43,624 nt of DNA from Syntrophomonadaceae bacterium (GTDB taxonomy: Bacteria; Bacillota; Dethiobacteria; DTU022), in NCBI GenBank assembly GCA_007119615.1, contig SKPH01000006.1:1-43624 (forward strand). Direction: 5' to 3'. A program made the position numbers and the translations under genes. This document shows, piece after piece, positions 23,305 to 35,498 of this stretch; within the stretch, counting starts at the first letter, position 1; the number at the start of each line of letters is the position of its first letter. The notes under the pieces are model-generated. The model ran no database searches and had not been told where the DNA came from. It was given only the letters and a program-made list of their open reading frames with translations.

Positions 23305-24141
23305 TTAATTTTTCTTTCCCAGTAATTCATGATGAGCCTGCACAACGGCCCGATCAATGCAGCCGGTATAGTCCTCCCGGCAACTGCACCCGGACTTCCG
23401 GTTAAAATCAAAATAAGCAAAATACTCAATGTTACCCTTAGGTCCGGGCCACCTGGAGAAAGTTATATCCCGGAAGCAGTATCCGGCTCGGCAGGCCATA
23501 TCTAAGGTATCTTTAAGAATCCTGCGGTGCAGTTCGGGGTCTCGGATAACACCTTTTCCTTTGCCGGCATCTATCCGGCCCGCTTCAAACTGTGGCTTAA
23601 TCAGGGCAAGTACAGCGGGAATAGTCAGTTTACTTAATACAGGCAGTACTTTGGAGAGCGAGATAAATGATACATCTACAACTGCCAGATCCGGCAGCCG
23701 GTCCAAATCACTGCGCGTAAGATTGCGGATATTAAACCGTTCCATCACAGTGACCCTGGAATCATTGCGCAGGCTCTGGTCAAGCTGCCCGTAGCCTACA
23801 TCAAGGGCAAATACAAATTTGGCTCCTTTTTTCAACAGGCAATCAGTGAAACCTCCGGTTGATGAGCCGACATCGAGAACAACCAGACCCCGCACATCGA
23901 TCTGCAGCTCATGCAGCGCACCTTCAATTTTTAATCCGCCGCGGCTAACATAAGGGTTTTCAGGTTTGCGCAGGTTGATCTCCACACTGCTGTCATGGAG
24001 TGTGCCCGGTTTATCGCTAACCCGACCGTTTACAATAACATTTCCGGCCATTATTTCAGCCTGAATACGGCTGCGGCTTAAATCGGGCCGTCTTTCTGCG
24101 AGCAGCAGATCCAGGCGTTCCTTTCGTTCCCGGGCGCTCAA
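23305..24141 (-). CDS. tlyA: TlyA-family rRNA methyltransferase / hemolysin-like protein
   Basis: TlyA proteins methylate rRNA ribose 2'-OH groups. The best start is TTG 24141, overlapping the dxs stop (TTGA) with AAAGGT five bases upstream. This gives 278 residues; the open frame upstream is dxs in another frame. An S4 domain (LDLLLAERRPDLSRSR, about 8-65) precedes an FtsJ-like methyltransferase domain with SAM motif VLDVGSSTGGFTDCLL and catalytic-region residues in DVSFISL and ALIKPQFE. Its substrate in this organism is not known. Confidence 0.93.
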   Translation of the reverse strand: MSARERKERLDLLLAERRPDLSRSRIQAEIMAGNVIVNGRVSDKPGTLHDSSVEINLRKPENPYVSRGGLKIEGALHELQIDVRGLVVLDVGSSTGGFTDCLLKKGAKFVFALDVGYGQLDQSLRNDSRVTVMERFNIRNLTRSDLDRLPDLAVVDVSFISLSKVLPVLSKLTIPAVLALIKPQFEAGRIDAGKGKGVIRDPELHRRILKDTLDMACRAGYCFRDITFSRWPGPKGNIEYFAYFDFNRKSGCSCREDYTGCIDRAVVQAHHELLGKKN

Positions 24142-26030
24142 GTCAGACCTTTTGCCGCCTGTCCACCGGCAAATGCAAGAGCCACATTGTAAATGCCGTC
24201 TGCGTCCAGATGACAGACGGAGAGCATCTGTGCCCTGGTTCCATGGCCGACAAAACAATCGTCTATCCCCAAACGTTTAATGGGCAGAAACATTCCTCTT
24301 TTCTCCAGCAGCTCCATAATGCCGCTGCCGAATCCTCCGCCCAGAACATTTTCTTCTACAGTAATCACCCGGCCGCATTTCCTGGCCCAGCCTAAAATCA
24401 GATCTTCATCGAGAGGTTTTATGAAACGGGCATTGATTACTGCCGTTTTTATCCCCTGCCAGAATAACTTTTCCGCAGCCTCAAGGGCTGAATTAACGAT
24501 TGTTCCTGCTGCAATAATCAGTAGATCTTCACCCTGCCGGATCACTTCTCCCCGGCCCCAGGGAAGAATCCTCGGTTTGGTTAGTTCGACTCCCAAAACT
24601 TTATCGCGCGGATACCTGATAGCTACAGGGCCGCCCACATGGTTAAGAGCTGTGGCAAACATATGTTGGAGCTCATCTTCGTTTGCAGGAGCCATTACCG
24701 ACATATTCGGCATAGTGCGCAGATAGGTAAGGTCGAAAAGCCCCTGGTGGGTTTCACCATCTTCTCCGATAATACCAGCCCGATCTACAGCAAATACAAC
24801 CGGCAGATCCTGCAGACAGGTATCATGTAATATCTGATCGTAAGCGCGCTGTAAGAAGGTGCTGTAAATGGCAACTACCGGCCGCATACCGCCCGCAGCC
24901 AGGGCTGCTGCAAAGGTGACGCCGTGCTGTTCAGCGATACCGACATCGTAAAATCTACCTGGAAACTCCTTAGAGAATTTGTTCAGGCCGGTACCGGCAG
25001 TCATTGCGGCAGTTATGGCTACTATATCCGGGTTTTCACGACCCAGTTGCAGCAGTGTCCGGCCAAATATATCTGTATAGGTCGGGCTTTTCTTTTCTTT
25101 AAGAGGCAGGCCGTTGTTTAAATCAAAAGGTCCGATTCCGTGAAATATTTCGGGGGATTTCTCTGCGTAATGATATCCTTTCCCTTTTTCGGTTACAACG
25201 TGAACTAAAACAGGACCGCTCATTTTATCGGCCTGTTGCAGTATATTCATGATCAGAGATATATTATGGCCGTCTACAGGGCCAAAATAGGTAAACCCAA
25301 GTTCTTCAAAAAGCATTCCCGGCATAATCAGGTATTTCAATCCGCCCTTAATTCTCTCAGCCGAATTCACCATCTGTTCGCCAACCAGCGGAATCCTGCC
25401 TACGAATTGCTCAAAATCTTTTTTCAGGCGGGAATACTTCGGATCGGAGCGAATACGCCCCAGGTAAGAGGACATGCTGCCTACATTAGAACTAATTGAC
25501 ATCTTGTTGTCGTTAAGAATGACCAGCAGGTTTGCCTTGATATGGCCGGCGTGGTTTAGTGCCTCGAATGCCATTCCTCCGGTGAGTGCTCCATCGCCTA
25601 TCACAGCAGCCACTTTATAGTCATCACCCTTGCAGTCACGGGCTCTGGCCAAACCGAGAGCAGCCGAAATTGAGGTGCTGCTGTGGCCGGTTAAAAAAGG
25701 ATCGTGCTCGCTTTCCGATGGTTTTGGAAAACCGCACAACCCCCCTTGCTGGCGCAGGGTCGGGAACTGGTCCCAGCGGCCGGTCAGGAGCTTATGCGGG
25801 TAGCTCTGATGCCCGACATCCCAGATCAGACGATCCCTGGGACTGCTGTAGTTACTGTGCAGGGCTACTGCCAGTTCAACAACCCCGAGGCTTGCCGCAA
25901 GGTGGCCGCCGTTATCGGCAACCGTTCTAATCATATATTCACGAATTTCCGCAGCAGCTTCGATCAGCTGTTCAGGGCCCAGTGTTTTCAGGTCCTGCGG
26001 CAGCTTTAAACTGCTGAGTAGCTCTCCCAT
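24138..26030 (-). CDS. dxs: 1-deoxy-D-xylulose-5-phosphate synthase
   Basis: Dxs starts the MEP isoprenoid pathway from pyruvate and glyceraldehyde 3-phosphate. It is thiamine-diphosphate dependent. It has 630 residues from ATG 26030. The ThDP motif GDGALTGG...NDNKMSIS is present, as are the GHSSTS N-terminal motif and the transketolase-like EQHGVTFAAALA. It overlaps tlyA by four bases and follows oapA by 18 bases, matching the ole-oapA-dxs order of Bacilli. Confidence 0.97.
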   Translation of the reverse strand: MGELLSSLKLPQDLKTLGPEQLIEAAAEIREYMIRTVADNGGHLAASLGVVELAVALHSNYSSPRDRLIWDVGHQSYPHKLLTGRWDQFPTLRQQGGLCGFPKPSESEHDPFLTGHSSTSISAALGLARARDCKGDDYKVAAVIGDGALTGGMAFEALNHAGHIKANLLVILNDNKMSISSNVGSMSSYLGRIRSDPKYSRLKKDFEQFVGRIPLVGEQMVNSAERIKGGLKYLIMPGMLFEELGFTYFGPVDGHNISLIMNILQQADKMSGPVLVHVVTEKGKGYHYAEKSPEIFHGIGPFDLNNGLPLKEKKSPTYTDIFGRTLLQLGRENPDIVAITAAMTAGTGLNKFSKEFPGRFYDVGIAEQHGVTFAAALAAGGMRPVVAIYSTFLQRAYDQILHDTCLQDLPVVFAVDRAGIIGEDGETHQGLFDLTYLRTMPNMSVMAPANEDELQHMFATALNHVGGPVAIRYPRDKVLGVELTKPRILPWGRGEVIRQGEDLLIIAAGTIVNSALEAAEKLFWQGIKTAVINARFIKPLDEDLILGWARKCGRVITVEENVLGGGFGSGIMELLEKRGMFLPIKRLGIDDCFVGHGTRAQMLSVCHLDADGIYNVALAFAGGQAAKGLT

Positions 26031-26048: not shown

Positions 26049-26621
26049 TTACTCCGTCTTTTTTATCCAGCTTAAAGGTCTTTCCAGTCGGGTTATCAAT
26101 GACCCGACGACCAGGATCACTTCAGTTGAATGGTTTATGGCAACTATCTTACCCCAGGCTTTTCCTCCCACGGTCAAAGCGGCAACCAGAGCTGTCAGCA
26201 AAATACCGAGGTAGAATTCGGTCCGGGCTAAAGTAGCATCGGCAACAAGCCTGAAAACAATAATAGCGGCCAGTGTGCCGCTGACAACCCCGCTGATATC
26301 TCCGGCTACATCATTACAGAAATTTGCCACCTGCTCAGCATTTTTTACCAGGTAGACGCCGCGTTTTGCCCCGACAACTCTCCGGGCTGCCTTGGCGTTG
26401 AGGGGCCCTATTTTAGCTGCAGCAGCGGCAGTACCGATGAGATCAAAAATTACACCTACAAAGATGACAAATAATAAAATTGCAAACGCAGCAATAAGTG
26501 ACTGGATCTCACTGAGTGAATATTGTGTGATAAAACCAAAAATGATGGCCAGAATAAAGGTCCAGATTGAAATTATTATAACCCAACGTGTCCGTCGACG
26601 CTTTTTCCTGATTTTAGCCAA
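26049..26621 (-). CDS. oapA: OLE RNA-associated membrane protein A
   Basis: The 190-residue protein starts at TTG 26621, six bases after AAGGTGA. It has a basic N-terminus (KIRKKRRRTR) and about four hydrophobic segments (roughly 13-32, 40-64, 110-126, 135-152). It carries a DxxxD pair, D104 and D108, in FCNDVAGDISG, which matches the signature known for OapA. OapA binds OLE RNA and locates it at the membrane; in Halalkalibacterium it is linked to cold, alcohol and Mg2+ stress. It lies directly downstream of the RNA and upstream of dxs, the expected order. Identity comes from context, size and motif; no alignment was run. Confidence 0.87.
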   Translation of the reverse strand: MAKIRKKRRRTRWVIIISIWTFILAIIFGFITQYSLSEIQSLIAAFAILLFVIFVGVIFDLIGTAAAAAKIGPLNAKAARRVVGAKRGVYLVKNAEQVANFCNDVAGDISGVVSGTLAAIIVFRLVADATLARTEFYLGILLTALVAALTVGGKAWGKIVAINHSTEVILVVGSLITRLERPLSWIKKTE

Positions 26622-26639
26622 ACCTCATCACCTTTGTAC

Positions 26640-27213
26640 AAAAAACATAAGTGGTAACAAACCAGGTAAACTTTGCGGCTTAGGTCCAGCAGGATTTCCC
26701 ACATGGTCACCTGTCGTTGCCGAGCAGGCAGTTCCCTTTTAAGACTATGCCCGCTGTGTCACCAACAGCAGAACTGGATTACCACTTAGCTCACACTTTA
26801 ATCCCTGGCTTGTTTCTCTTTCGAGAGCAGTCTAGAAGATTTCCCCCCTGACGCCTGGTCTCCCCTAGCCTCTTTTGCAGAGTAGGTTTAAGGTATTTGC
26901 ATTCCCTCCACCTATTCCACTCAAGGCAGGCTACACTGCACACAGCTTTTGTACCGCATGCAGGTTTCTTACCCAAGCAGTAGCCTTTTGTTTATTAAAC
27001 AATACGCCACCGTCATTGGGTCTCCACGAAGGCAGGGTCAACGCCTACATGCCATTGTAGATCGCCCCGTCCTTCTTAACTCCCAGCACCAGCTCCCGAC
27101 TGGGCGTCGGCAGCCACCACCAGGAACTTCATCGGTGTGCCCTTAACGGATTTTTAGGCCCGTTTTCGGAGAGGGGCGGCAACTAGAATACTGCACCACT
27201 TATGCTCGTTGCT
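26640..27213 (-). ncRNA. ole: OLE RNA (ornate, large, extremophilic), about 575 nt
   Basis: This 667-base gap (26622-27288) has no plausible gene but is densely structured. It lies between folD and oapA, exactly where OLE RNA sits in other Firmicutes. Helices I can pair include 5' stem 27208-27212 with 27179-27183, hairpin 27096-27110, hairpin 27045-27060, hairpin 26988-27002, stem 26980-26985 with 26929-26934, a GAAA-tetraloop hairpin (26815-26826), hairpin 26753-26769, and a closing 3' stem AAGTGGTAA/TTACCACTT (26779-26787 with 26649-26657) followed by six T (26645-26640). Length suits the roughly 600-nt class. It has its own promoter. Ends are estimates. Confidence 0.85.
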
Positions 27214-27220
27214 GTGGAAT

Positions 27221-27288: not shown

Positions 27289-28227
27289 TTATAACAGCCC
27301 ATGGTTAATTTTGCATGCTTTCAGGGCGTTTTTCAACAACATCCGGTTAGTTACCGAGCCAACACCTTTAGGAACAGGGGATATGGCCCTGGTCTTATCT
27401 TTGACCGCGTCGAAGGATACATCGCCAACAGTTTTAGTCTTCGGTTTGCCCTTTTCATTGAGTACCGGTTCACCTTTTTCATCAACTACTTTTACCCGGT
27501 TAATTCCGACATCAATTACAATTGCCCCTTCTTTAACCTGCTCAGGACCGATTAAGTCTGCTTTGCCGGCTGCTACGATCAGGATATCGGCCCCCGTGGT
27601 GTGCTTCTCAAGGTTGCCCTTCATGCTGGTAAAGACATGCGTAACACTGGTAGTCGCATTTCGGTTAAGAGCGAGGAAGGCCACAGGTTTACCGACAATG
27701 TTAGAGTGGCCGACAACAACAATCTCAGCACCTTCAAAGAAGTCTTTTGGATCCATATTTTCGTCATTACGGGCAAAGCGTTCCAGAATTTCGATTACCG
27801 CCGCCGGAGTTGCCGGTGGGAAGGTAACCTCGCCCAGGGCGAGTTTACCCATGTTGAAAGGATGGAAGCAGTCAATATCTTTATTAACATCAATTGAGTT
27901 TATTACAACCGTATCCGATATCTGTTCGGGAAATGGGCGCAGGGGTAAAATTCCGCTGACCGTCGGATCGGCATTCAGTTTCTGTACAATATTGATAACT
28001 TCTGCTTCTGTTACATCCGCGGGAGGGTTTTCGTTAACATAGGCAAATCCGGCTTCTTCACAAAACTTTTCTACCTGCCCTCTGTACATGCGGGAACCGA
28101 AATCATCCCCAACCAGGAGGGTGGCAATCCCCGGGGTAATACCTTTGGCTTTAAGCTCCTCCGTTTCTTTGATAATTTCTTTCATGATCTCTTCGCCAAT
28201 CGCTACACAGTCAATTACTTTTGTCAT
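27289..28227 (-). CDS. folD: FolD-family methylene-THF dehydrogenase lacking cyclohydrolase residues
   Basis: The preferred start is ATG 28227 (MTKVIDCVAIG), ten bases after AAAGGGG, giving 312 residues, longer than the usual 285. FolD normally oxidises 5,10-methylene-THF with NAD(P) and then hydrolyses methenyl-THF. An ungapped match to E. coli FolD around residues 32-61 places Val52 at the catalytic Lys of YVxxK (here Y48-RGQV) and Leu96 at the catalytic Gln (GILPLRPFP in place of GILVQLPLP). The Asp of KDIDCFHP and the nucleotide loop VGHSNIVGKP remain. It is probably dehydrogenase only. The neighbouring fchA would supply cyclohydrolase. An insert with VDEKGEPVLNEKGKPKTK is unusual. Confidence 0.88.
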   Translation of the reverse strand: MTKVIDCVAIGEEIMKEIIKETEELKAKGITPGIATLLVGDDFGSRMYRGQVEKFCEEAGFAYVNENPPADVTEAEVINIVQKLNADPTVSGILPLRPFPEQISDTVVINSIDVNKDIDCFHPFNMGKLALGEVTFPPATPAAVIEILERFARNDENMDPKDFFEGAEIVVVGHSNIVGKPVAFLALNRNATTSVTHVFTSMKGNLEKHTTGADILIVAAGKADLIGPEQVKEGAIVIDVGINRVKVVDEKGEPVLNEKGKPKTKTVGDVSFDAVKDKTRAISPVPKGVGSVTNRMLLKNALKACKINHGLL

Positions 28228-28344: not shown

Positions 28345-28980
28345 TTAAACCGATCTGAATTTGCTAATTACGCTATTCAGGGTTTCATCGGCAATTTTGC
28401 CGCCTTCCTCGATCAGCTGATCCATTTCTGCTGTTGTTTCATTTATAAAATTTTCATCTTTTATTGCGCCCAGGTTGATCAATACATTCAACTGGCCGCT
28501 GATCAGGGCTGCTTTTAAAAAAGCGACTCCGCAGCCGACATCAGAAATAGCAAGTTTTGTTCCAATCTGGCCCATCCGTTCATGGATCTTAATTCCCTGG
28601 TAAGCTTTTCGCATAATCTCCATCGGAACGGAGCATGCTTCTATTGAGCATTCTTCCATAACTTTTGCCTTGTGTTCGGCCTGGTCGGGTGTGTCTTTCG
28701 GCAGGCCGTACGCTTTTGAAAGCGGTTCAAATACCTCTGCATCCCTGTCGATTAATTTCTTGAGATCTTCGATAATCTGGTTACCCTGCTCCAGCAAGCT
28801 ATTTACTTCATCTTCAACATCGGCAAATTTCTTTTTCCCTACGGTCAGGTTGCCGACCATATTCGACAGGGCCATACCGATAGCGCCGCCCATTGCGGCC
28901 GCCCCGCCTCCCCCGGGAACCGGGGCTTTCGAAGCCAGAACATCGAGAAAGTAACTGCAGCTTTTGTCTGCCATTGCCAT
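28345..28980 (-). CDS. fchA: Methenyl-THF cyclohydrolase (FTCD-C family)
   Basis: FchA hydrolyses 5,10-methenyl-THF to 10-formyl-THF. ATG 28980 (MAMADKSC) follows GGAGGG at seven bases, giving 211 residues. The family signature near the N-terminus, LASKAPVPGGGGAAA, and the helical remainder match formiminotransferase-cyclodeaminase C-terminal domain proteins. It lies 117 bases upstream of a FolD that appears to lack cyclohydrolase residues, so the two are likely consecutive steps of one-carbon metabolism. Confidence 0.9.
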   Translation of the reverse strand: MAMADKSCSYFLDVLASKAPVPGGGGAAAMGGAIGMALSNMVGNLTVGKKKFADVEDEVNSLLEQGNQIIEDLKKLIDRDAEVFEPLSKAYGLPKDTPDQAEHKAKVMEECSIEACSVPMEIMRKAYQGIKIHERMGQIGTKLAISDVGCGVAFLKAALISGQLNVLINLGAIKDENFINETTAEMDQLIEEGGKIADETLNSVISKFRSV

Positions 28981-29010
28981 AATAGAACCCTCCTTCAGCA
29001 TTTTCGATCC

Positions 29011-29085: not shown

Positions 29086-29970
29086 CTACCTCGTCCGGTA
29101 GATCATTTTGTTTGCCAGTTCCTTTAACAGCCCGGAAGGGCGATCAAGTTTATCCAGCGCCGATACAGCATCGATATATAACGCTTCGGCTCTTCTTCGG
29201 GCTTCTTCAGAACCAAGCAGGGCCGGATAGGTAGCTTTGGACAGGATCTGGTCTGCACCGGCCGGCTTGCCAAGCTCCGCTGTTGTGCTTTCGTAATCGA
29301 GCAGATCATCGATAATCTGGAAAGCAGGCCCGATCCTGGAAGCATAAGCATTCAGGACTTTGATTTGTTTTTCGGAAGCGTTCGCCGCGATCGCGCCGCA
29401 CACTACTGCAGCTCGCAGTAGTGCTCCTGTCTTCATTATTGCGATTTTGTCAACCTGGGCGGCATCCAGGGCAGCTCCTTCGGCTTCAAGGTCGAGGACC
29501 TGTCCACCGATCATCCCTTCCACTCCCGCCGCTCCGGCCAGCTCGCCCGTGATCCGGATCGCCCGTTTCTCCCTGCCTGCCCGGGAACCGTAGCAGGCTA
29601 TTGTTTCAAAAGCGAGGGTAAGCAGGGCATCTCCGGCCAAAATGGCTACCGCTTCACCGTAAACACGGTGGCAAGCCGGTTTACCGCGTCTCAGATCGCT
29701 GTTGTCCATTGCCGGCAGATCATCGTGAATCAGGGAGTAGGTATGTATATATTCCAGGGCACAGGCAACATCAATTATCGATTCGTCTTCCGCCCCAAGG
29801 GTCTCGGCAACGGCAAGCGCCAGGATGGGCCTGAGCCTTTTGCCGCCTGCTTCCAGGCTGTAACGCATTGCATCAACAACTGCAGCAGGGGCGGACCGAG
29901 GCATTCTTTCTGCCAGGGCCCGATCAATCTTAGCTTTTTCCTGCTCCAGGTATTTCCCGATTTCAATCAT
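29086..29970 (-). CDS. ispA: Geranyl/farnesyl diphosphate synthase
   Basis: This enzyme elongates allylic diphosphates with IPP. It has 294 residues. Its ATG overlaps the xseB stop (ATGA). The first Asp-rich motif is DDLPAMD, with the two-residue insertion usual for bacterial farnesyl diphosphate synthases, and the second is DDLLDYE. GGKRLRP is also conserved. It draws on IPP/DMAPP from the Dxs-IspH-Fni route. xseB-ispA order is typical of Firmicutes. Confidence 0.96.
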   Translation of the reverse strand: MIEIGKYLEQEKAKIDRALAERMPRSAPAAVVDAMRYSLEAGGKRLRPILALAVAETLGAEDESIIDVACALEYIHTYSLIHDDLPAMDNSDLRRGKPACHRVYGEAVAILAGDALLTLAFETIACYGSRAGREKRAIRITGELAGAAGVEGMIGGQVLDLEAEGAALDAAQVDKIAIMKTGALLRAAVVCGAIAANASEKQIKVLNAYASRIGPAFQIIDDLLDYESTTAELGKPAGADQILSKATYPALLGSEEARRRAEALYIDAVSALDKLDRPSGLLKELANKMIYRTR

Positions 29971-30236
29971 GAATCGTCTTCCCCAATCTCTTCTTCCGGT
30001 TCTTCGTAAATATCCTGTTCAAAAGGCTGCCGATCTTCTTTAAGTAAATATTCAACCCTGTACTCAATTTCAGCCAGCTTTTCACGGCAATAACGGGAAA
30101 GGGCAATGCCTTCCTGGAAAGCGGAAAGTGATTCTTCCAGGGGTATCTCGGTATCTTCAAGGCGGTTGACCAGCTCCTCCAACCTCGCAATCGCTTCTTC
30201 GTAAGTCATCTTCTCAATTTTTTTATTCGCCACCAA
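29967..30236 (-). CDS. xseB: Exodeoxyribonuclease VII small subunit
   Basis: XseB has 89 residues and wraps XseA in the single-strand-specific exonuclease VII. The core MTYEEAIARLEELVNRLED and ESLSAFQEGIALSRYC are family-typical, followed by an acidic tail (EEPEEEIGED). Starts at TTG 30236 and the adjacent GTG 30233 both suit GGAGGG upstream. It overlaps xseA by 14 bases and ispA by four. Confidence 0.95.
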   Translation of the reverse strand: MVANKKIEKMTYEEAIARLEELVNRLEDTEIPLEESLSAFQEGIALSRYCREKLAEIEYRVEYLLKEDRQPFEQDIYEEPEEEIGEDDS

Positions 30237-31449
30237 TTACGCCCTCCTCAACTTTCTCCGTACGGCAGTAAGCCCGCCCGTCCCTGAAGCTAAGCTGAAG
30301 CAGGCGGCCCAAACGGACATCATGTACCGAGCGGATTATATTCCCCTCTTCATCCCGGCAGTAGCTGTATCCCCGTTTCATAACCTTTAGAGGGCTGTAG
30401 CCTTCCAGCTTGTCTGTCTGAGCAGACAACTTCATTCCTTTATACTGCAAGACCCGGACAATCTCACGGCGCAATTTAACATCCAGCTGCTTCAACTGTT
30501 CCCCGGAAAATTTCAGGCGTTTTCCGGGCAGGCGAAAAAACCGTTCGCTGACAACATGATCGAGTTTCTGCTTTTCCTGCTGGTTCCGTCTTTTAAGCGC
30601 CGTGGCCGCTCGCTCCCGCAGGCGGTCCAGCTTAAGGAGCAGTTCTCCTTGATCCGGAACAGCCACCGCCGCTCCGGCTGTAGGAGTCGGAGCTCTTAAA
30701 TCAGCGGTAAAGTCGGCAATGGTAAAATCAGTTTCATGCCCCACAGCAGATATTATTGGTAATTCAGACCGGTAAATAGCCCTGGCCACAGCTTCTTCAT
30801 TAAAAGGCCACAAGTCTTCAAGTGAACCGCCCCCGCGGGCCAGGATAATCAGGTCGATATCGCTGCGCCGGTTAAGCAGATCCAAACTCGTGATAATATC
30901 CGATGCCGCTCCGGCACCCTGAACCAGGCTTTCCACCACCAGCAGATGAATATGGGGAAACCTTTTTTTTATTGTAGTCAGCATATCCTGCAGAGCGGCG
31001 CCAGTCGGTGAGGTCACAAGGGCAATTTTTCGGGGCAGCAACGGGATCGCTTTTTTGGTTTCTGCCTTAAAAAGGCCTTCAGCTTCAAGCTTTTTTTTCA
31101 GCTGCTCAAAAGCAAGAAAAAGCGAACCCATTCCGGCCGGTTCCATCTCTACAACATAAAGCTGATAAACACCGTCGGGTTCATAAACCGAAATATTGCC
31201 GTGAAGAATCACTTCCATCCCATCTTCCGGTTTAAACGGACAGCGTGCGTTATCACGGCGGAAAAAAACACAACGCAATGCGGAAGAGCTATCCTTGAGG
31301 GTAAAATACATGTGCCCCGATCGATGGTGTTTGAAATTTGACAGCTCCCCGGCCACCCGCAGATCCCTCAGGCGGGGATCACCGTGAATTAAACCCTTGA
31401 TGTAGCGGTTTATTTCAGAAACTTTTAAAACTTGAAGGTTGTTTTGCAT
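30223..31449 (-). CDS. xseA: Exodeoxyribonuclease VII large subunit
   Basis: XseA is the catalytic subunit and degrades single-stranded DNA. It has 408 residues. The N-terminal OB-fold contains VAGELSNFKHHRSGHMYFTLKD. The catalytic domain carries LVTSPTGAALQD, ILARGGGSLEDLWPFN and SAVGHETDFTIAD, with a coiled-coil region after that. It overlaps xseB. A two-gene oxidoreductase and a TsaD-like gene separate it from nusB. Confidence 0.96.
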   Translation of the reverse strand: MQNNLQVLKVSEINRYIKGLIHGDPRLRDLRVAGELSNFKHHRSGHMYFTLKDSSSALRCVFFRRDNARCPFKPEDGMEVILHGNISVYEPDGVYQLYVVEMEPAGMGSLFLAFEQLKKKLEAEGLFKAETKKAIPLLPRKIALVTSPTGAALQDMLTTIKKRFPHIHLLVVESLVQGAGAASDIITSLDLLNRRSDIDLIILARGGGSLEDLWPFNEEAVARAIYRSELPIISAVGHETDFTIADFTADLRAPTPTAGAAVAVPDQGELLLKLDRLRERAATALKRRNQQEKQKLDHVVSERFFRLPGKRLKFSGEQLKQLDVKLRREIVRVLQYKGMKLSAQTDKLEGYSPLKVMKRGYSYCRDEEGNIIRSVHDVRLGRLLQLSFRDGRAYCRTEKVEEGVIGGE

Positions 31450-31492: not shown

Positions 31493-33520
31493 TCAAACCA
31501 GGCCTTTCATCTCCTCCCGGACATCTTCCAGCGAATTATAGCTCCACCTTGCTCCCATCGCATCAGCCAGATCCAAAATAAACCGCCAGTCCGGCGTAAG
31601 ATTTTCACCGGTCGGCAGGGCGGCCTTGTTTAAGCGGGTCTGGGCGGAAGAATTCGTAAATAAGCCCTCTTTGGAAATTATATCCTGGGCGGGAAATATC
31701 AGATCGGCTCCGCCGGGAATTTCTTCTTCATCGCCGCATACCGCTGCCAGGAATTCAATTCCCGCCTTCTTTTGATCAGCGTAGACTTTACCGAAAGATA
31801 AAAGGCCTTTAACTTTCCCACTTTCGGCGGCAGCAAGTATATCTTCCCTGGCCATTCCGCTCGCGCCGTTAAGAACCGCAAAGCCGGGACCGTAAAAGGG
31901 AGTTCCTCCCGCGGCCAGAACGCCAACTGCGTTACTGTATTTGGAGAGCAGCAATAAGTTACTGCAGCCCTGCTCTATCTGCCCGCCGGTAACAGCCAGT
32001 TTCAGGAGCATATCAACAGACTGGTCGGATGCAGATTCAAAAAACGATGAACCGGCCACTATATAGCTGTTCGGGCCGGAGAGCAGCTTGGCGGCGGCCC
32101 GGAGATTGTCATCGCTAATCCCGCTTAATGAAACTGATCCGGTTTCTTCATCTCCGTTTTGGAGGGCAACGAGCGCCTCCATAAATGCAAATTCACCGTT
32201 ATTTTCTGTGGTATAGATTATCTCTTTCCAGGCCGAATTTTCTCTTTCGGTTTCAGCAGGCCTGATAATAACCGCATCGCCAAATCTCCCGGAATGATCT
32301 ACCGCCATGGCGGCAACCGGGTGGCTCTCATCTATTTCTCTTCCCAGGACAAGGATTGTTTCGGCATTACTGAGGGCGTACGGGGTGGGGCAGGCAATAC
32401 CGGTTCCTGTGATATCCTGCATGCCCGTAAATGCTTTAACCCAGGCCGGTTCAGCCCCCAGATCTATATTGGCGGTGCCCAGGACGGTTCTGGCAAATTT
32501 TTGAGCCAGGTAAATTTCTTCGCTGCTGAGCTTTCCCGATCCCAGTACAGCCAGTGCATCCGGACCAAAATCTTCCTTAATTTTCAGCAGGACATCAGCC
32601 GCTTTCCGGATTGCCTGATCATAAGTTACTTCTTCATAACCTGAACCGTCTGTTTTAAATTTCATCACTGCAGTAATCAGTTTTGCTGCATCTTCACGAA
32701 TAAACCCGAACTTGCCTCTCTTGCAGAGCCAGCTTACACTGTCCCCTTCCCTGGGAACCGTAACCCTGATCATATCGTCGCCGGAAAGCTGCCTCTCCAG
32801 GTAACAGCCTACCGAGCACTCAGTACAAATACCGGGAACACAGGAAAGTTCCCACTCCCTGCCTCCGGCGCTGCGAGTCTTTTCGGTAAGCGCTGCAACA
32901 GGGCAGACATCTACGCATTGTCCGCACATCACGCAGCCGGCTTCTTCCATGGTTACTTCCTTTCCGTCGCGGCAGGGTATAACCCTGGTATTGACCCCGT
33001 TGCCGGTCAGGCTGTAAACGAAGGCCCCTGGACCGGTCCGGCAGATCTGCAGACACCGGCCGCATAGAATACATTTTTCCTCATCACGGACGATATATGG
33101 GTTATCGGAGAATGTCCCAGCGGGAATATCCCTGGGGATCTGGTCAGGCAGATTTGACTGGAACCTGTAAGCGTTTTCCTGCAGTTCGCAGGTTCCGGTT
33201 CTCACGCAAGTCAGGCAGTCTTTGTATGGATGAGTAGCCAGGGACAGCTCCAGGATCTTGCAGCGCATCTCCTGTAATTCCGGTGTGTCGGTTGTTACAA
33301 TCATTTCTTCTTTCACCGGATTGTCGCAGGAAGTGACCGGGCGCTCCATTCCACTGATTTTAACTATACAGATCCGGCAGTGCCCGAGCGGTTCCAGCCT
33401 GGGATGATAGCAAAGGGTGGGAATGGTAATTCCGTTTTGCCGAGCTGCTTCCAGGATTGTTGTGCCCTCATCGGCAAATATTTTTTTACCGTCAATTGTT
33501 AAACTAATGGTTTTTATCAT
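31493..33520 (-). CDS. NuoG-like multi-Fe-S subunit (molybdopterin-fold without active-site ligand)
   Basis: 675 residues. In order: a 2Fe-2S ferredoxin domain (C37, C48, C51, C65), a His-Cys 4Fe-4S site (H97, C102, C105, C111), two ferredoxin-type clusters (C150-C160 and C196-C206), then the 4Fe-4S motif of molybdopterin enzymes (C232, C235, C239, C266) and a shortened molybdopterin-fold domain. Where formate dehydrogenases have Cys or Sec, this protein has GTANIDLGAEPAW with none, and the C-terminal cofactor-capping domain is missing. It is thus an electron-wire subunit like NuoG. It is 16 bases downstream of the NuoF-GltD gene and probably forms a soluble complex with it. The physiological electron partners are not known. 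Confidence 0.85.
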   Translation of the reverse strand: MIKTISLTIDGKKIFADEGTTILEAARQNGITIPTLCYHPRLEPLGHCRICIVKISGMERPVTSCDNPVKEEMIVTTDTPELQEMRCKILELSLATHPYKDCLTCVRTGTCELQENAYRFQSNLPDQIPRDIPAGTFSDNPYIVRDEEKCILCGRCLQICRTGPGAFVYSLTGNGVNTRVIPCRDGKEVTMEEAGCVMCGQCVDVCPVAALTEKTRSAGGREWELSCVPGICTECSVGCYLERQLSGDDMIRVTVPREGDSVSWLCKRGKFGFIREDAAKLITAVMKFKTDGSGYEEVTYDQAIRKAADVLLKIKEDFGPDALAVLGSGKLSSEEIYLAQKFARTVLGTANIDLGAEPAWVKAFTGMQDITGTGIACPTPYALSNAETILVLGREIDESHPVAAMAVDHSGRFGDAVIIRPAETERENSAWKEIIYTTENNGEFAFMEALVALQNGDEETGSVSLSGISDDNLRAAAKLLSGPNSYIVAGSSFFESASDQSVDMLLKLAVTGGQIEQGCSNLLLLSKYSNAVGVLAAGGTPFYGPGFAVLNGASGMAREDILAAAESGKVKGLLSFGKVYADQKKAGIEFLAAVCGDEEEIPGGADLIFPAQDIISKEGLFTNSSAQTRLNKAALPTGENLTPDWRFILDLADAMGARWSYNSLEDVREEMKGLV

Positions 33521-33536
33521 CTTTTCCCCTCCCCCT

Positions 33537-35498
33537 TTAAGATATGATCAGGCCCAGACGCAGGCACTTGAAACATCTTTCGGTTTCCTTAACGACAGAT
33601 GAAGGGCACTTGAATCCCAACTCGGCCTCATCGAATCCGCGCACTCTTTCATCCACCGGGCTGACCTCTTCCTCCAGCCTTTCTCTTCCTCCGATCATTT
33701 CCGGTACTGTAAGTTCATTATAAACACCTAATTTTTCAAGGTGTTTCTCCATTTCGAACTGCCCACCGACAGAACTTTTTCCTTTTCGGAGGTAGCTGTC
33801 GATTGCTTCGGCAGCACGATTGGCCGATGCAATCGCTTCAATAACAGTCCGGGCGCCCAAAACGGCATCTCCCCCGGCAAATATTCCGGGCTTATCCGCC
33901 GCCATAGTTTCTTCATCGACAGCCAGGGTGCCCCATTTGGTAACATCCATACCGCAACCTTCGTTAAGGTAGCAAAAATCAGCAACCTGGCCGATTGCCG
34001 GTATCGCTGTATCCACCTTAAGAACAAATTCCGACCCGTCCAGGGGCACCGGCCTACGGCGGCCGCTGGCATCCGGCTCCCCCAGTTTCATCCTGATACA
34101 TTCCATACCGCTGACTGTGCCTTTTTCCTCGAGGATACAGACGGGATTAGCTAAAAGGTGGAACCTGATACCTTCCTCTTCGGCCGCATCAACTTCCGCC
34201 TTGCTGGCGGGCATTTCCGTCCTGCTGCGGCGATAGATTAAATGGACCTCCTTGACCCCAAGACGAACAGCGGAACGGGCGCAATCCATCGCTACGTTTC
34301 CGCCGCCGATCACAGCAACGCTTTCGCCAAGATCCACTTCCTCTCCGAGATTGACCTTGCGCAGGAATTCGATGCCCGGCATATAACCGTAATAGCAGGC
34401 ATCCTCCCCTTCGCAGCCAAGGGTGGAGCTTTTATGAAGGCCGCTGGCGATAAAGATCGCCTTATAGCCCTGCTCCCAGATCTGATCCAGTGTAATATCT
34501 TCACCCACCCGGGTGTTATATTTAATTTCCACGCCCAGGCTGGTAACCAGCTCAACTTCGGCGTTCAGAATATCACGCGGTAGTCGGTAACTTGGAATAC
34601 CGACAGCAAGCATGCCGCCCGCAACAGGCAGTTCTTCAAATATCGTAACATTATAACCTTTCAAGGCAAGCTGATATCCTGCATTCAGACCGGCCGGGCC
34701 GGCTCCTACTATCGCCACTTTGTCCGCATCCGGTAGGGGTTTAGGGTAATCTCTCTTACTGTCGTTATCGGTGCCGGCAACGAAATCGGCAGCAAAACGT
34801 TTTAAAAGCCGAATTGATATTGACTCGTCATACGGCTGCCGGTTGCAATTCGATTCGCAGGGATGCACGCAAACCCGTCCCAGGGTTCCGACCAGGGGTG
34901 TTTTCTCCCGGTTAACAGCAACAGCTTCCTCGTAGTTACCTTCCCTGATGCATTCAATGTATTTGGGAATATTAATATGTGCGGGGCATCCGTTGCGACA
35001 TGGCGCAGTCAGGATGGGTCGATACTGATCGGTTTTTCCAACTGCAGGCCTGTTGCCGTTCAAACATGCTTTGAAATCTTCCTTAAAATGTTCAAGGGCA
35101 TGCAGCAGGGGTAGCGGTGAAGAAACTCCCAGTTCGCAGAGTGAACCGTCTCTAATCAGCACCGCTAGCTCACCTAGGAATTCAAGGTCTTGCCCGGTCC
35201 CTTTTCCTGAAATTAAGTTTTCCAGGCGATCGGAGATTACTTTACTTCCTGCCCTGCAGGGAATACAGCGGCCACAGGACTCGTTCTGGACACAACTGTA
35301 AAATTCTTTTAACGCTCCGATCAGATCTACTTCAGGATCGACAATAACCAGCCCTGCCCATCCGATCATCGCTTTCAGGTCTCCACTGCCAAACTTTGCC
35401 GGAAGATCCAGTTCTTCAAGATCGGTGCGTTGATCCAAATCTTTATCCCGTTCGTCAACTATTTTTCCATTCCAGCTGCTAAAAAATACCTTGGCCAT
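33537..35498 (-). CDS. NuoF C-terminal Fe-S module fused to GltD/NfnB-type FAD oxidoreductase
   Basis: 653 residues. Residues 1-145 match the end of NuoF: LVIVDPEVDLI, then a 4Fe-4S site C75, C78, C81 and C121. The NuoF FMN/NADH domain is missing. Residues 160-240 are a GltD-type two-cluster domain (C167, C171, C210, C214, C218; GRVCVHPCESNC). FAD binds at GAGPAG (265-270), and NAD(P)H at GGGNVAMD (398-405); GGDAVLGARTVIEA completes the FAD site. An extra CFKC lies near the end. NAD(P)H oxidation at the FAD, with electrons passed to the NuoG-like partner, is the natural reading. A role in Nfn-like electron bifurcation is speculation. Confidence 0.87.
   Translation of the reverse strand: MAKVFFSSWNGKIVDERDKDLDQRTDLEELDLPAKFGSGDLKAMIGWAGLVIVDPEVDLIGALKEFYSCVQNESCGRCIPCRAGSKVISDRLENLISGKGTGQDLEFLGELAVLIRDGSLCELGVSSPLPLLHALEHFKEDFKACLNGNRPAVGKTDQYRPILTAPCRNGCPAHINIPKYIECIREGNYEEAVAVNREKTPLVGTLGRVCVHPCESNCNRQPYDESISIRLLKRFAADFVAGTDNDSKRDYPKPLPDADKVAIVGAGPAGLNAGYQLALKGYNVTIFEELPVAGGMLAVGIPSYRLPRDILNAEVELVTSLGVEIKYNTRVGEDITLDQIWEQGYKAIFIASGLHKSSTLGCEGEDACYYGYMPGIEFLRKVNLGEEVDLGESVAVIGGGNVAMDCARSAVRLGVKEVHLIYRRSRTEMPASKAEVDAAEEEGIRFHLLANPVCILEEKGTVSGMECIRMKLGEPDASGRRRPVPLDGSEFVLKVDTAIPAIGQVADFCYLNEGCGMDVTKWGTLAVDEETMAADKPGIFAGGDAVLGARTVIEAIASANRAAEAIDSYLRKGKSSVGGQFEMEKHLEKLGVYNELTVPEMIGGRERLEEEVSPVDERVRGFDEAELGFKCPSSVVKETERCFKCLRLGLIIS

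Follow-up and report, generated by a model that had tools for sequence, protein, structure and literature searches.

Apparent exchange of folD, encoding a predicted monofunctional 5,10-methylene-tetrahydrofolate dehydrogenase, beside fchA in a Syntrophomonadaceae bacterium and its relatives

Dehydrogenases of 5,10-methylene-tetrahydrofolate (methylene-THF) that leave the cyclohydrolase step to another protein are known from several sources: yeast MTD1 (1edz) is a monofunctional enzyme that lacks both catalytic residues (Lys and Gln) of the bifunctional FolD proteins and uses NAD, MtdA of Methylobacterium belongs to another dehydrogenase family than FolD, and Aluri et al. 2016 are said to have shown the FolD of Clostridium perfringens to be monofunctional, with dehydrogenase activity only. 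In Methylobacterium, MtdA and FchA are likewise separate dehydrogenase and cyclohydrolase proteins (excerpt of PMC9618320), and separate FolD and FchA have been described for clostridia (excerpts of PMC7219735, citing Aluri et al. 2016, of PMC3584212 and of PMC9040625; the last gives the names FolD, FchA and Fhs for C. autoethanogenum). The clostridial FolD, FchA and Fhs (C. perfringens, C. autoethanogenum) resemble the locus reported here in that the cyclohydrolase is a protein of its own and the FolD beside it, or close by, is annotated as dehydrogenase; this likeness is one of description, the protein studied here being defined by YRGQV and GILPLRPFP. For the human enzyme it is stated that Lys56 acts together with Gln100 and that the substrate is bound by Tyr52 and Asp125 (excerpt of PMC3368264). 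E. coli FolD mutants: K54N – dehydrogenase about 19%, cyclohydrolase undetectable; Q98H – dehydrogenase about 8%, cyclohydrolase about 1% (excerpt of PMC5688156).

The window, i.e., the whole stretch of DNA analysed (43,624 nucleotides; contig SKPH01000006.1 of assembly GCA_007119615.1), carries folD at 27289–28227 (minus strand), coding for a predicted monofunctional methylene-THF dehydrogenase of 312 aa; PF00763 99.3 bits and PF02882 166.2 bits, both over the Pfam cut-offs; phmmer against E. coli FolD (1b0a) E-value 6e-54; translation from 28227: MTKVIDC...GSRMYRGQVEKFC...SGILPLRPFPE...KDIDCFHP...PKGVGSVTN. The phmmer alignment was free of gaps in the stretches YRGQV/YVASK, GILPLRPFP/GILVQLPLP and KGVGSVT/GGVGPMT (window/E. 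coli). Translation and alignment confirmed the original prediction that, in place of the YxxxK lysine and the VQLPLP glutamine of bifunctional FolDs, the window protein has Val52 (codon 28072–28074, minus strand; E. coli K54, human K56) and Leu96 (codon 27940–27942, minus strand; E. coli Q98, human Q100); the alignment also bore out the loop KGVGSVT (27349–27369, minus strand) in place of GGVGPMT. Three further changes were found beyond those predicted: DVDG is replaced by DIDC (Cys120, codon 27868–27870), and of the residues for the NADP 2'-phosphate, Arg is replaced by His174 (codon 27706–27708; human Arg173) and Ser by Val198 (codon 27634–27636; human Ser197), all on the minus strand. The bifunctional enzymes (E. 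coli 1b0a, human MTHFD1 domain) are of the same family by sequence, from which the window FolD thus differs in lacking Lys and Gln, in DIDC and GSVT, and in having neither Arg nor Ser for the 2'-phosphate; yeast MTD1 is related but distant (E 3e-10). Among the 25 listed of 30 matching public models, all were named bifunctional FolD, and each scored the window protein below its curated cut-off. No other FolD was found in the 70% complete genome; a second PF02882 match was weak, below the cut-off and contained a stop.

The gene fchA, for methenyl-THF cyclohydrolase, was located at 28345–29001 (minus strand; PF04961 218 bits); with its end at 28345 and the folD ATG at 28227, it lies 117 bases upstream of folD, as predicted. 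PF04961 also takes in FTCD-type proteins and cyclodeaminases, and the window FchA gave 181.7 bits with the NCBIfam equivalog NF045657 (cut-off 275), the FchA of Geothermincola likewise remaining under this cut-off (237 bits). Its best solved relative was FchA 7vg4, the match to the Methylobacterium side of the comparison (127 bits vs 82 bits for FTCD 1tt9). The conserved upstream flank consists of ispA, xseB and xseA (29086–31449, minus strand; ispA by NF045485, the flank by synteny; the names xseB and xseA are those we presume from sequence and gene order). Downstream are OLE RNA (26635–27215, minus strand; RF01071, 465 bits, full length), an ORF that is probably oapA (26049–26621, minus strand; placed by its position after OLE and by synteny, no Pfam match) and, after it, dxs (24138–26030; synteny), the last two names being our assumption at this locus. 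In 11/20 stretches from relatives OLE RNA separates folD or ispA from oapA-dxs, and beyond these it stands near the stretch end in G007 and G026. The OLE RNA literature was checked for a link with folD, and a text examined contained only unrelated uses of the word 'fold'. Upstream of xseA, NuoG-like and NuoF/oxidoreductase-like genes (31493–35498, minus strand) are kept in several relatives.

Forty relatives were searched, 37 gave a match, and in 34 of these the residues of FolD were read (the partial FolDs of G022, G025 and G030 were left out). FolD of the window type (type-i: YRGQV or YRKQV, GILPLRPFP) was found in 13/34, including the window genome; a second type without Lys and Gln (type-ii: mostly YEGGA, YEGGI or YEKG with GILMFAPLP or close variants) in 9/34; the classic Lys+Gln FolD in 12/34, some with tandem paralogues. 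Val52 and Leu96 were invariant among the 13 type-i FolDs from 13 genomes and are therefore no sequencing accident; Tyr48 and Asp119, both kept in the window protein, were invariant as well. The position of Cys120 was C in 13/13 type-i and in 73% of 31 type-ii FolDs, G in 95% of 106 Lys+Gln FolDs; the S and V of the KGVGSVT loop were present in 13/13 type-i, P and M in 92–95% of the Lys+Gln FolDs. The search for adjacent fchA covered about 1.5 to 2.5 kb of fetched flanking sequence; the gene lay directly upstream of folD in 12/13 type-i, 9/9 type-ii and 0/12 classic genomes; the thirteenth type-i genome (G026) has it on another contig.

A genome collection was scanned with the 13 type-i FolDs and yielded 65 loci, i.e., 36 type-i and 29 classic or otherwise not type-i. 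The type-i loci, from named public genomes, belong to Bacillota (many labelled Syntrophomonadaceae), Actinomycetota (Geothermincola, Solincola and others) and two Nitrospirota assemblies; Leu96 was present in 36/36 and Val52 in 35/36 (Gly in L068). fchA was adjacent in 35/36 type-i loci vs 0/29 of the others; the remaining one, L092, starts at a contig edge, and a PF04961 gene stands at the edge of another contig of the same genome. The expectation that the Val52/Leu96 type comes with fchA thus held for all 13 relatives and for the named genomes.

Survey of 199 Bacillota genomes (192 with FolD, all read for both residues; 116 with PF04961): Lys+Gln FolD – 119/192 genomes, PF04961 in 41/119; Lys kept, Gln replaced (mostly by Glu, often with fchA downstream) – 29, PF04961 in 29/29; Lys absent, Gln kept in some FolD – 6, PF04961 in 5/6; both absent – 38, PF04961 in 38/38. 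PF04961 was therefore present in 72/73 genomes without a Lys+Gln FolD vs 41/119 with one (Fisher p 6e-22, uncorrected for relatedness), and fchA was adjacent in 48/73 vs 1/119, the single classic genome (G117) having it beside its own Lys/Glu FolD. Among 95 families, 38 had non-classic FolD only, all with PF04961; 34 had classic FolD only and were without PF04961; the remaining 23 were mixed, or classic with PF04961. Other FolD forms were observed. A class in which Lys is kept and Gln is replaced by Glu (VELPLP) was seen in L245, L247, L252, L266, L271 and others, with fchA usually downstream; in two of its relatives (G121, G156) Lys is lost as well. A recurrent paralogue beside the classic FolD has Gln where the latter has Lys (YTNAQ, GIILQMPLP, DVEGVT, GAGTATT; L277, L279, L282, L288, L301 and others). 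Family f5 (L018, L017, L020, L021, L022, L024, L028, L032) has two or three FolD paralogues in tandem; one keeps Lys, has lost Tyr and shows GINIH-PL instead of VQLPLP, and another has odd residues.

On a tree of 64 rows, from which the motif columns were removed, the Lys/no-Lys state changes 7 times (FolDs under 250 aa were left out; similar rows were thinned to 55 and 9 type-i rows were then added). The independent-pairs test (168 genomes with one FolD; FolDs under 200 aa left out) gave 1 to 3 pairs when loss of either residue (Lys or Gln) was counted and 2 to 6 when loss of Lys was, too few for significance; in AU tests neither a single clade of type-i and type-ii (p 0.55) nor one that also takes in the Lys/Glu clade (p 0.31) was rejected. 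Given the 7 changes, the few pairs and the AU results, no independent losses are claimed; the idea that type-i and type-ii lost Lys convergently was considered and dropped, as the AU tests fail to separate them.

From the E. coli mutants, the residue roles in the human enzyme and the retention of Tyr48 and Asp119, the window FolD is expected, by analogy with its homologues, to be a dehydrogenase without cyclohydrolase activity. Since the K54N exchange leaves E. coli FolD with just a fifth of its dehydrogenase activity, good activity would need compensating changes, for which DxDC and GSVT may be offered as guesses. With Lys and Gln gone, FolD would be unable to hydrolyse methenyl-THF or to close formyl-THF, and the methenyl-THF cyclohydrolase step would fall to FchA, whose gene lies immediately upstream; the methyl branch would then run from formate to formyl-THF (Fhs), to methenyl-THF (FchA) and to methylene-THF (FolD). 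The genome holds Fhs and an acetyl-CoA synthase domain, and in Geothermincola fchA-folD stands between AcsV and AcsD/CODH genes; both contexts agree with a role in the Wood-Ljungdahl methyl branch. The original prediction that the two activities are split between FolD and FchA is supported by residues, operon, E. coli mutant enzymology and co-occurrence in genomes; such a pair of monofunctional dehydrogenase and FchA is known in kind and well supported here. The further suggestion that the split would let methenyl-THF be channelled, or the reverse reaction be controlled, found no support in these results. We consider it very probable that FolD is a monofunctional dehydrogenase, that FchA performs the cyclohydrolase step and that the folD slot is exchangeable, the activities being inferred.

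That FolD keeps its cyclohydrolase activity by means of other residues, FchA being an extra copy or serving another reaction, is improbable: E. coli K54N and Q98H lose the activity wholly or nearly (excerpt of PMC5688156), the window FchA is nearer to the solved FchA than to FTCD, and fchA adjoins nearly all type-i and every type-ii FolD of the relatives, although one genome (G199; L180, L304, L323), 99% complete, lacks PF04961 and has three FolDs, all of them without the catalytic Lys, and although the breadth of PF04961 and the score of the window FchA under the equivalog cut-off leave some room for another function. Still less probable is a decayed or repurposed FolD that has lost the dehydrogenase as well. 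Lys and Gln do aid the dehydrogenase step in the human and E. coli enzymes (excerpts of PMC5688156 and PMC3368264), but the 12 Bacillota type-i FolDs are 79–96% identical to each other and type-i FolDs 75–87% identical across phyla, Tyr48 and Asp119 do not vary, and the protein is the sole FolD found in its incomplete genome.

Sister genera have either type-i or type-ii FolD at one and the same locus. The order xseA-xseB-ispA-fchA-folD-OLE, followed by oapA and dxs, is shared within the window's family by five type-ii genomes (G001, G009, G010, G016, G018) and by type-i genomes (window, G002, G005, G006, G020; G007 to the end of its contig); in the remaining four type-ii genomes (order level, family f5) fchA-folD stands at another place, and the fetched stretches do not contain these flanks. 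In the classic relatives G028, G011 and G024, folD precedes xseA or ispA, and the stretch contains no fchA. Identities, from hand-picked loci (12 Bacillota type-i, 9 type-ii, 14 Actinomycetota, 5 deeper type-i): type-i vs type-ii FolD – median 37% (30–43), their FchAs – median 72% (59–85); Actinomycetota (14) vs Bacillota type-i FolD – 83% (75–87), their FchAs – 38% (32–42). Since at the same locus the FolDs are so much less alike than the FchAs, folD alone appears to have been replaced beside a resident fchA; since between phyla the relation is reversed, folD appears to have moved between them without fchA. The Lys/Gln-less folD of one lineage would have been replaced in place by that of the other, also present in Actinomycetota, the resident fchA making the FolD slot exchangeable. 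The tree of type-i FolDs nests the Bacillota rows within those of Actinomycetota and Nitrospirota, with Actinomycetota deepest (branch support moderate, 87/60); this nesting suggests transfer into Bacillota. A swap produced by binning or assembly can hardly be credited: the named genomes are mostly metagenome assemblies, yet orthologous operon genes stand on both sides of folD on the same contigs in the five type-ii genomes, the same two-sided flanks occur in four type-i genomes besides the window, and the named type-i records bear several different isolate names. What is new here is the apparent exchange history of folD, one half of the pair being swapped between close relatives with fchA kept; no description of the swap or of the YRGQV type was found in the open-licence full-text literature.

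In the human enzyme the residues that bind NADP include Arg173, His196 and Ser197, and it is the Arg/His/Ser combination that binds the 2'-phosphate (excerpt of PMC3368264). This combination is absent from the window FolD; type-i has His174, His197 and Val198 in 13/13, while Arg and Ser were found in 96% and 90% of 31 type-ii and in 98% and 93% of 106 classic FolDs. Owing to the loss of the usual Arg and Ser, type-i FolD is predicted to use NAD; these residues serve as a lead, as E. coli FolD also differs at this site (Ala and Arg, so that Arg is still present). A change of coenzyme towards NAD may thus have come with type-i FolD. More tentatively, and with rather less than even confidence, the folD slot beside fchA may be a coenzyme module: with FchA relieving FolD of the cyclohydrolase step, exchange of folD alone, at one conserved locus within the family and between phyla next to two distantly related FchA lineages, would have switched the methylene-THF dehydrogenase step from NADP to NAD.

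The in-place exchange offers a natural experiment, i.e., matched operons that differ in the type of FolD, for the study of coenzyme use and flux. If the slot is indeed a coenzyme module, the choice of redox partner in the methyl branch of the Wood-Ljungdahl pathway would evolve by replacement of a single gene. For many anaerobes the label of bifunctional FolD would give a wrong picture of the pathway, 73/192 of the Bacillota genomes being without a Lys+Gln FolD.
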